From Betaproteobacteria bacterium (GTDB taxonomy: Bacteria; Pseudomonadota; Gammaproteobacteria; Burkholderiales; SG8-39): a DNA stretch of 39,280 bases. Positions within the stretch are counted from its first letter, which is position 1; each line of letters starts with the position of its first letter. Shown one piece after another: positions 13,316-18,365 of the stretch. The notes below the pieces were generated by a model. The model was not told where the DNA came from. It saw nothing but the letters and a program-made list of their open reading frames with translations, and ran no database searches. The position numbers were made by a program, and so were the translations under genes. The stretch spans positions 1 through 39,280 of the forward strand of contig JAFAGU010000053.1 in assembly GCA_019237595.1 (NCBI GenBank), read 5' to 3'.

Positions 13316-14548
13316 ATGGCCTCGCGGCGCCGGGTCGTCCTCACCGGAGCGGGCGTGATCTCGCCGCTCGGTAATTCGCTTGCGGAATTCCACGCCTCCC
13401 TCCTCGCCGCTCGCTCGGGCATCCGGCGCCTGCCGGAGGATGTCGCCCAGGGATCCGGAGTGCAGGTCGGCGCGCTCGCCGATTGGGAGCCGGGCGCACT
13501 CTTTAGCGCCGCCGAGGCCGGCAATACCGACCGCGTTTCGCAGTTCGCCGTCGGCGCCGCCTCGCAGGCGATCACGGCGAGCGCGATCGATCTCGAGCGG
13601 GAGAACCGCGAGCGCGTAGGCGTGTACTGGGGAACGGGCATGGGCGGGGCCCATACGCTCGAAGCGAGCTACAAGCACCTCTACTCGACCGGCGAATGGC
13701 GCACTCGGCCCTTGACCGTCGTCATGGCCATGAACAACGCCGCCGGCTCGAACGTGGCCGTGCGCTTCGGCCTGCGCGGCCCGTTCGCGAATTTCTCGAC
13801 TGCCTGCTCGTCCTCCGCCATGGCGATCGGCGAAGCGATGCGCACCATCGAAGCCGGCCGCGCCGACGCGATCGTCGCCGGCGGGTCCGAGTCGCTCCTC
13901 ACGCCTGCGACGCTGCTCGCGTGGCAATCGCTTCGCACGCTTGCACCTGCGGATGCGGCCGACCCGGCCGCGAGCTGCAAGCCCTTCGATCGCCGGCGTG
14001 CGGGTCTCGTGCTTGGCGAAGGCGCCGCCGCGTTCGTGCTCGAAGAGGAGTCGCGCGCCGCCGCACGAGGCGCGCGCATCCTCGCGCGGCTCACGGGTTA
14101 CGGGAACGCGTGCGACGCCGTGCATATGTCGCGGCCGGACCGCGGCGGGCAGGTGCGCGCCATGCGCGAGGCGTTGTCGGAATCCGGGCTCTCGCCTGAC
14201 GATATCGCGTACATCAACGCTCATGGAACGGCCACGGCAGTAGGCGATGTCGTCGAGTGCCAGGCGATCCGGGAAGTCTTCGGCGACAGGCCGGTGCGCG
14301 TGAGCTCGACCAAGTCGCTGCACGGCCACCTGCTCGGCGGCGCCGGGGCGCTCGAGCTCGCGGCAGCGCTCCTGCCCTTCGAGAAGGGCATGATGCCGCC
14401 GACGGCTTTCCTCGAGGATCCCGACCCCGCGTGCGCGCTTGCGCACGTGGCGCTTCACGCGCAGGCCATCGAACGGCCGCGGGCCGTGATGTCGAACTCG
14501 TTTGCCTTCGGAGGATCTGACGTCGTGCTGGTTGCGGAGCAGCCCTAG
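13316..14548 (+). CDS. Beta-ketoacyl-ACP synthase (KAS II/FabF-like)
   Basis: RRVVLTGAGVISPLGNSL; FSTACSSSAMAIGEA active-site Cys; INAHGTATAVGDVVE; STKSLHGHLLGGAGALE. Confidence 0.92.
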   Translation: MASRRRVVLTGAGVISPLGNSLAEFHASLLAARSGIRRLPEDVAQGSGVQVGALADWEPGALFSAAEAGNTDRVSQFAVGAASQAITASAIDLERENRERVGVYWGTGMGGAHTLEASYKHLYSTGEWRTRPLTVVMAMNNAAGSNVAVRFGLRGPFANFSTACSSSAMAIGEAMRTIEAGRADAIVAGGSESLLTPATLLAWQSLRTLAPADAADPAASCKPFDRRRAGLVLGEGAAAFVLEEESRAAARGARILARLTGYGNACDAVHMSRPDRGGQVRAMREALSESGLSPDDIAYINAHGTATAVGDVVECQAIREVFGDRPVRVSSTKSLHGHLLGGAGALELAAALLPFEKGMMPPTAFLEDPDPACALAHVALHAQAIERPRAVMSNSFAFGGSDVVLVAEQP

Positions 14549-16476
14549 CCGCCCGGAGAAGCGAGGGGCTGGGAAGCCACGGCGCGAAGCAGCCGGCGCA
14601 GCGCGCTGAACTCCACCGGCTTCGTCAGGTGGTGGTCGAATCCGGCCGCCGCCGTACGAGCGCGATCCTGCGGCTGGCCGTAGCCCGTGATCGCGATGAT
14701 CGTCATCCTGGGAAGCTTGGAATCCGCGCGCACCTGGCGCGCAATCTCGTAGCCGTTCAGCTCCGGCAGCCCGATGTCGAGCAGCAGCGCCTCGGGCCTG
14801 AATTCACGCGCGGCGGCAAGCCCTGCCGGCCCGTTCGTGGCTACGCGAATCTCGTGTCCCTCGTTCTCGAGCAGGTAGCGAAGCGCGTTCGCCGCATCCG
14901 CGTTGTCGTCGACGATCACGATGCGCAGGCGCCGAGCGCTTCCCTCGTCCGCGCCTTCGGCGTCCGCCTCCGCGGGCTCCGAGCCGGCGTACGCCGGGAG
15001 CCGCACGCTGAACTTGCTTCCCTGGCCTGGGCCTTCGCTTGCAGCTTCGATGCTGCCGCCGTGTAGCGTGACGAGCCGCTCGACGAGCGTGAGGCCTACG
15101 CCCAGTCCGCCTTCCGGGCGGTCGATGGACTGCTGGCCCTGCTTGAAGAGCTCGAAGGCGGTGCGCACGAGCTCGGGCGACATCCCGATGCCGGTGTCCT
15201 CGACGCTGAAGGTCACGTGCTCGCCCGAGCGCCCGGCACGAACGACGATGCGGCCACCGTTGGGCGTGAACTTCGCGGCGTTGTGCAGCAGGTTCTGGAT
15301 GACCTGGCTCAGGCGCACCGGGTCCGCTTCCGTCTCCAGCGGCTCCTCCGGCAGCTCAATGACGAGCTCATGGCCTCGGCTCTGGATCCATTGCGCGGAA
15401 GCATCCGCGGCCTCGCGGATGGAGCGCCGAAGGTCGACGCGCGCGCGGCTGAGCGCGACCGTGGAGCGCGTGATGCGGCTCACGTCGAGCAGGTCGTCGA
15501 CCAGGCGCGTCATCTGCACCGTCTGGCGCTGGAGGACGTCGCGCACCCAGAGCTCCGTGGGATCGGTGGTGGGCTTCCTCGTGAGCAAGTGCAAGGCGTT
15601 GCGGATCGGCGCGAGCGGGTTACGCAGCTCGTGCGCCAGCATCGCGAGGAATTCATTCGTCTGCTTTTCCGCCTTCTCGAGGGCTTCCACGCGACGCCGG
15701 TCGGTGAGGTCGCGCGTCACCTTAGCGAAGCCCTGGAGCGTGCCGTCCGCGTCGCGGATCGCCGTAAGCACCACGTTCGCCCGGAACGTCGTCCCGTCCT
15801 TGCGCACGCGCAGGCCCTCGTCCTCGAAGCGGCCGGTGCGCGCGGCGGTCTCGAGCTCCTGCTCGGGCCAGCGGCGCTGGCGGCCCTCCTCCGGGTAAAG
15901 CAGGGAGAAATGCCGGCCCAGGATCTCGTCGCGCGAGTAGCCGTTGATGCGCTCCGCGCCCGAATTCCAGCTCACCACTCGGCCCTCGGGATCGAGCATG
16001 AAGATCGCGTAGTCCTTGACCGCGTCCACGAGCGTGCGAAAGCGCGCCTCGCTCTGGCGAAGGAGCTCTTCCTGCCGGCGGCGCTCGGTGAGGTCGCGGG
16101 TGATCTTGGCGAAACCGCGCAGCGTGCCGTCGCGGTCCTTGATCGCCGTGATGACGACGTTAGCCCAGAAGGTCGTCCAGTCCTTGCGCACGCGAAGGCC
16201 CTCGTCCTCGAAGCGACCCTGCGCGGCGGCCATGACAAGCTCCTGCTGCGGCCAGCCACGCGCCTTCGCCTCCTCCGGGTAGAAAATCGAAAAGTGCTTG
16301 CCGAGGATCTCGTGCGCGGCATAGCCCTTCAGCCGCTCCGCGCCCGGATTCCACGAGGCGACCCGGCCGTCCGCATCCAGCAGGAAGATGGCGTAGTCGT
16401 GGACGCTCTCGACTAGACGCTGGAACGGATTGTCGAGGCCGGCCAGCGGCCTCGCCGGTTCTTCCGGTTCTGTCAT
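14545..16476 (-). CDS. Hybrid sensor histidine kinase: PAS-PAS-HisKA-HATPase-REC
   Basis: Two similar PAS/PAC units, NEFLAMLAHELRNPLAPIRNAL H-box, VEDTGIGMSPELV, C-terminal REC IVIVDDNADAANALRYLL...EALLLDIGLPELNGYE; ORF upstream of ATG 16476 only reads through a tRNA. Confidence 0.93.
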   Translation of the reverse strand: MTEPEEPARPLAGLDNPFQRLVESVHDYAIFLLDADGRVASWNPGAERLKGYAAHEILGKHFSIFYPEEAKARGWPQQELVMAAAQGRFEDEGLRVRKDWTTFWANVVITAIKDRDGTLRGFAKITRDLTERRRQEELLRQSEARFRTLVDAVKDYAIFMLDPEGRVVSWNSGAERINGYSRDEILGRHFSLLYPEEGRQRRWPEQELETAARTGRFEDEGLRVRKDGTTFRANVVLTAIRDADGTLQGFAKVTRDLTDRRRVEALEKAEKQTNEFLAMLAHELRNPLAPIRNALHLLTRKPTTDPTELWVRDVLQRQTVQMTRLVDDLLDVSRITRSTVALSRARVDLRRSIREAADASAQWIQSRGHELVIELPEEPLETEADPVRLSQVIQNLLHNAAKFTPNGGRIVVRAGRSGEHVTFSVEDTGIGMSPELVRTAFELFKQGQQSIDRPEGGLGVGLTLVERLVTLHGGSIEAASEGPGQGSKFSVRLPAYAGSEPAEADAEGADEGSARRLRIVIVDDNADAANALRYLLENEGHEIRVATNGPAGLAAAREFRPEALLLDIGLPELNGYEIARQVRADSKLPRMTIIAITGYGQPQDRARTAAAGFDHHLTKPVEFSALRRLLRAVASQPLASPGG

Positions 16477-16528
16477 CCTGTGGACTGGAAAAAGGAACTT
16501 CTCATCATACGTCGCGTGCGGCAAAAGA

Positions 16529-16604
16529 TGGTGGCCAAGGCCGGAATCGAACCAGCGACACACGGATTTTCGGTCCGCTGCTCTACCAACTGAGCTACTT
16601 GGCC
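16529..16604 (-). tRNA. tRNA-Phe (GAA), CCA encoded
   Basis: Minus strand GGCCAAGTAGCTCAGTTGGTAGAGCAGCGGACCGAAAATCCGTGTGTCGCTGGTTCGATTCCGGCCTTGGCCACCA folds as cloverleaf; anticodon loop CCGAAAA, anticodon GAA. Confidence 0.93.
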
Positions 16605-16627: not shown

Positions 16628-16633
16628 ATTATA
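16628..16633 (-). promoter_or_regulatory. Putative -10 (TATAAT) of the tRNA-Phe transcription unit
   Basis: Minus strand GACGCTATAATTCGCGCC, 24 nt before the tRNA 5' end; no clear -35, that region lies in the groEL terminator. Confidence 0.5.

Positions 16634-16700: not shown

Positions 16701-18365
<1,665 letters not shown>

Follow-up and report, generated by a model that had tools for sequence, protein, structure and literature searches.

Few bases of tRNA are as strongly conserved as the uridine at position 33, which forms the U-turn of the anticodon loop; a cytosine at this position is without the N3-H donor of uridine. In the U-turn the N3-H of U33 bonds to the phosphate of residue 36, which holds the turn in place (PMC8080527). 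C33 is tolerated in the eukaryotic initiator tRNA (PMC9023262) and the tRNA-Cys of the Sulfolobales is a natural elongator with C33 (PMC7668247). In yeast, a U33C change in tRNA-Gln gives a phenotype that has been tied to poor decoding (PMC3664417), and a sole C33 copy should therefore cost fitness. For t6A, C33 also acts as an anti-determinant (PMC9654439), a point that has no bearing on tRNA-Phe. A search of the open-licence literature found no published case of a bacterial tRNA-Phe with C33 as sole copy. The original prediction held that C33 is known mainly from eukaryotic initiators and is very unusual in a bacterial elongator; the rarity stands, but the list of occurrences was incomplete, lacking the tRNA-Cys of the Sulfolobales and the extra tRNA-Phe genes of Bradyrhizobium, Cerasicoccus and viral contigs. 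Here we describe a tRNA-Phe gene with C33 in a window (the whole stretch of DNA that was analysed, 39,280 nucleotides) from a draft betaproteobacterial genome, most likely a functional gene with a point variant that is private to this assembly.

Results

The gene is called on the minus strand by both ARAGORN and the Rfam model RF00005 (68.6 bits), with the Phe(GAA) identity coming from ARAGORN, and reads GGCCAAGTAGCTCAGTTGGTAGAGCAGCGGACCGAAAATCCGTGTGTCGCTGGTTCGATTCCGGCCTTGGCCACCA from 16604 to 16529 (Table 1). Its anticodon arm is G27CGGA31 - C32 C33 G34 A35 A36 A37 A38 - U39CCGU43, window bases 16573-16569 corresponding to tRNA positions 32-36 and 16572 to position 33. This bears out the C33 of the original prediction, together with its view that all stems pair and that the gene looks intact: the acceptor stem is Watson-Crick in 7/7 pairs and wobbles occur solely in the anticodon stem (G27-U43) and the T stem (U51-G63). 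The T loop is UUCGAUU and CCA is encoded in the gene. A cloverleaf with a GAA anticodon, A37 A38 and the conserved D and T loops are all present, as in a bacterial tRNA-Phe(GAA), and U33, a near-universal base although not a strictly defining one, is the only conserved position at which the gene departs. The gene is confirmed as an ordinary intact tRNA-Phe with one very rare base. A pseudogene, with several disrupting changes or with promoter or stems lost, was rejected given the single change, the intact stems and the retention of the upstream element and synteny.

Table 1. Features of the tRNA-Phe locus (window coordinates).
Feature	Coordinates	Strand	Evidence
tRNA-Phe(GAA) gene, CCA encoded at 16531-16529	16529..16604	-	ARAGORN, Rfam RF00005 68.6 bits, alignment with relatives
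tRNA position 33 = C, not U (+ strand: G, not A)	16572..16572	-	sequence; T in all 69 other tRNA-Phe compared
anticodon GAA	16569..16571	-	sequence, ARAGORN
groEL, upstream neighbour, conserved synteny	16701..18353	-	Pfam Cpn60_TCP1 7.7e-82; adjoins tRNA in relatives
TATAAT, likely -10 element of tRNA promoter, 23 bases from gene	16628..16633	-	invariant in this genome and five relatives, surrounding spacer diverges
PAS/histidine kinase/response regulator ORF, downstream	14545..16563	-	ORF list, domain search

The alignment with sister genomes that the original prediction had proposed was carried out on 70 tRNA-Phe sequences, the gene itself and 69 from the same genus, family and order. Column 33 is T in 69 of the 70 and C only in the source genome, so that C33 is absent from every relative compared. 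Twenty-two columns vary in this set; other than 33, they either lie in stems, where compensating changes are frequent, or are the known variable positions 17, 32 and 57, and the columns usually called universal (8, 14, 18, 19, 21, 53-56, 58 and 61) show zero variation. When genomes of the order were searched with a pattern allowing A, C or G at position 33, the only match among 399 was the source genome itself (0/398 others), while the corresponding T33 pattern matched 343/399. At the family level the C33 pattern was found in 1/98 genomes, again the source; C33 as a trait of the genus or family was accordingly rejected (0/97 other family genomes). The change is, as judged from these alignments, a lone T-to-C step private to the source assembly.

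The position of the gene is also that of its relatives. In genomes of the genus and family groEL likewise lies beside tRNA-Phe, at ~78-87% DNA identity. An alignment with five relatives shows a spacer that is poorly conserved except for the TATAAT, together with a conserved downstream context and the tRNA itself, in which position 33 is the only column that differs. A scan for consensus promoters, which also requires a -35 element, and for terminators gave no call, TATAAT included; the conservation of TATAAT nevertheless makes it the likely -10 element of the tRNA-Phe promoter. Both the orthologous position and the promoter-like element are thus retained, and by its place behind groEL, its TATAAT and its being the only copy in the assembly the C33 gene is identifiable as the native tRNA-Phe copy. 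An accessory copy carried on a mobile element (phage, island or tRNA array) was rejected on the same synteny and on its being the sole copy found. On the other side of the gene, the listed GTG start of the kinase ORF falls inside the tRNA gene, and the true start is probably later for this reason; kinase-like relatives align with the ORF from about residue 15-30 onward.

The source assembly comprises 3.27 Mb in 395 contigs and is 88.3% complete. Another tRNA-Phe, the check for which had been called for at the outset, was not found when this assembly was searched with the gene. The tRNA inventory, which rests on a tRNA family search, holds 31 tRNAs, and those read include no Phe besides the C33 gene. 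Same-genus genomes that hold a tRNA-Phe gene have one full-length copy apiece, and a few family members (G043, G052) have two.

As read by ARAGORN, all 28 other distinct tRNAs of the source genome have U before the anticodon, two of the 28 being odd genes with a six-base loop. Private changes in the neighbouring GroEL amount to 2/258 otherwise invariant columns (relatives 0-6), and neither GroEL nor the other tRNAs show an excess of odd bases. Glycine-like tRNAs with the six-base anticodon loop CTCCAA, one loop base short, occur at L071:45-116 (G000:C109), L072:359-430 (G000:C357) and L075 (G000:C152:680-750); a search of the other 97 genomes of the family (E <= 1e-8) found none. Two of them look like one locus in two strain variants, with an identical tRNA and differing flanks. 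The ends of contigs C109 and C357, on which L071 and L072 lie, overlap by ~476 bases and are 95% identical there, the differences in the coding part being mostly synonymous, which suggests that the source assembly mixes strains. A second, divergent tRNA-Cys(GCA) with the loop TTGCAAC is present at L073 (G000:C159:1408-1483) besides the normal tRNA-Cys.

Beyond the order, a C33 pattern representing tRNA-Phe of one common sequence type gave at least 9 matches in a collection of ~85,000 species genomes from bacteria and archaea; the source genome is not alone in having a C33 tRNA-Phe. Four matches are isolates, two Bradyrhizobium and two Cerasicoccus (L038, L042, L043, L045), and all four also hold a normal T33 tRNA-Phe. 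One Bradyrhizobium C33 locus shares 8 kb of identical sequence with a contig from a viral collection and the Cerasicoccus copies sit in tRNA arrays, and the isolate copies therefore look like accessory genes. The Cerasicoccus arrays (L043, L045) include several odd tRNAs. The remaining five matches come from metagenome assemblies, none of which showed a second Phe-like gene. This confinement of sole-copy C33 to metagenome assemblies is suggestive and does not amount to a test. At least six viral contigs (L147-L152) match the pattern; two of the viral contigs overlap over 6,168 bases at 99.97% identity and both have C33. On L149 and L152 the C33 tRNA-Phe is part of a tRNA array.

In silico folds of unmodified tRNA, which are weak evidence, place the cloverleaf of the C33 form at -29.1 and a misfold at -29.2 kcal/mol, the misfold pairing C32-G44, C33-G42 and G34-C41. 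For the U33 form the cloverleaf is favoured by 2.1 kcal/mol and there is no equal-energy misfold.

Discussion

We give slightly better than even credence to a native single-copy tRNA-Phe gene in which position 33 recently underwent a single T-to-C transition. That the gene is native and intact is shown by the cloverleaf, the sole copy, the groEL synteny, the TATAAT shared by six genomes and the lone change among 70 sequences. At least some of the cells would truly carry C33, whether fixed or segregating. The tRNA would be transcribed and charged by PheRS, and would read UUU/UUC codons in spite of a weaker U-turn: residue 33 would no longer form the N3-H bond to the phosphate of residue 36, and C32, A37 and A38, together with the ribosome, would still hold the anticodon loop well enough. 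A working but weaker tRNA-Phe is what we would expect.

The principal alternative is that the consensus base at 16572 arose from an error of sequencing or assembly, or that the assembler picked up a rare strain allele, in a population that has U33; we regard this as a serious possibility that falls short of even credence. The draft is fragmented into 395 contigs, C33 is private to it, and the overlapping ends of C109 and C357 are a direct sign of strain mixture. No relative shares the base, outside the source genome sole-copy C33 was seen in metagenome assemblies only, and a scan for oddities over many windows would also bring up a rare error that hits a conserved position. The yeast U33C phenotype (PMC3664417) and the split computed fold of the C33 form likewise count against a real variant. 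A literature search for consensus errors in metagenome assemblies gave no paper. On the other hand the gene lies on a 39-kb contig with intact groEL and kinase ORFs, no further conserved position of the tRNA-Phe is odd, and no excess of odd bases is seen in GroEL or among the other tRNAs. Isolate genomes do carry C33 tRNA-Phe, and these well-structured genes, with the two concordant viral contigs and the tRNA-Cys of the Sulfolobales, count in favour of a real variant. We hold a real genotype to be somewhat more probable than an artefact.

A second, canonical tRNA-Phe might also lie in sequence that the assembly lacks, leaving the C33 copy redundant and drifting. The incompleteness of the assembly with its 31 tRNAs, the normal genes beside the Bradyrhizobium and Cerasicoccus C33 copies, and the family members with two copies would all fit, but same-genus genomes have only the one copy, and it is the syntenic gene with the conserved TATAAT, not a mobile-element extra, that has C33; we consider this improbable. 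Still further from probable, to the point of being hardly credible, is transcription of C33 followed by editing to U33 that restores the U-turn. Other organisms are known to edit C to U in other tRNAs, and the need for a working tRNA is all that speaks for it here; we know of no C33-to-U editing in bacteria, and one private change is no indication that an editing system has evolved. Nothing supports either editing or a new decoding mechanism.

If the preferred reading of a recent transition in the native gene is right, the bacterium may live with C33 in its only tRNA-Phe, all Phe codons being read by a natural, possibly fixed elongator that lacks U33; taken as a whole this is conceivable and rather unlikely. 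Such an elongator would test to what extent the ribosome and the modifying enzymes can dispense with U33. Should the base be an artefact, the case would usefully caution that, in draft genomes, base errors or strain variants can reveal themselves at invariant tRNA positions.

Among known systems the nearest is the canonical tRNA-Phe(GAA) of other genomes in its genus and family (e.g. L008, L009, L014), which shares 75/76 bases, a nearby groEL and the same TATAAT, and differs in having U33 where the source gene has C33. The isolate and viral C33 tRNA-Phe genes share both the GAA anticodon and C33, although the isolate copies are accessory beside a normal gene, the Bradyrhizobium copies matching contigs of the virus collection and the Cerasicoccus copies lying in a tRNA array, whereas the source gene is a native sole copy. 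The eukaryotic initiator tRNA-Met with C33 (PMC9023262, PMC8080527) is likewise a working tRNA but a P-site initiator and not an elongator. The tRNA-Cys(GCA) of the Sulfolobales (PMC7668247) has both C33 and G27-U43, as does the source tRNA-Phe, although G27-U43 is also common among the U33 relatives of the latter; C33 in the Sulfolobales is clade-wide in archaea, whereas that described here is private to one assembly and belongs to a different isoacceptor.
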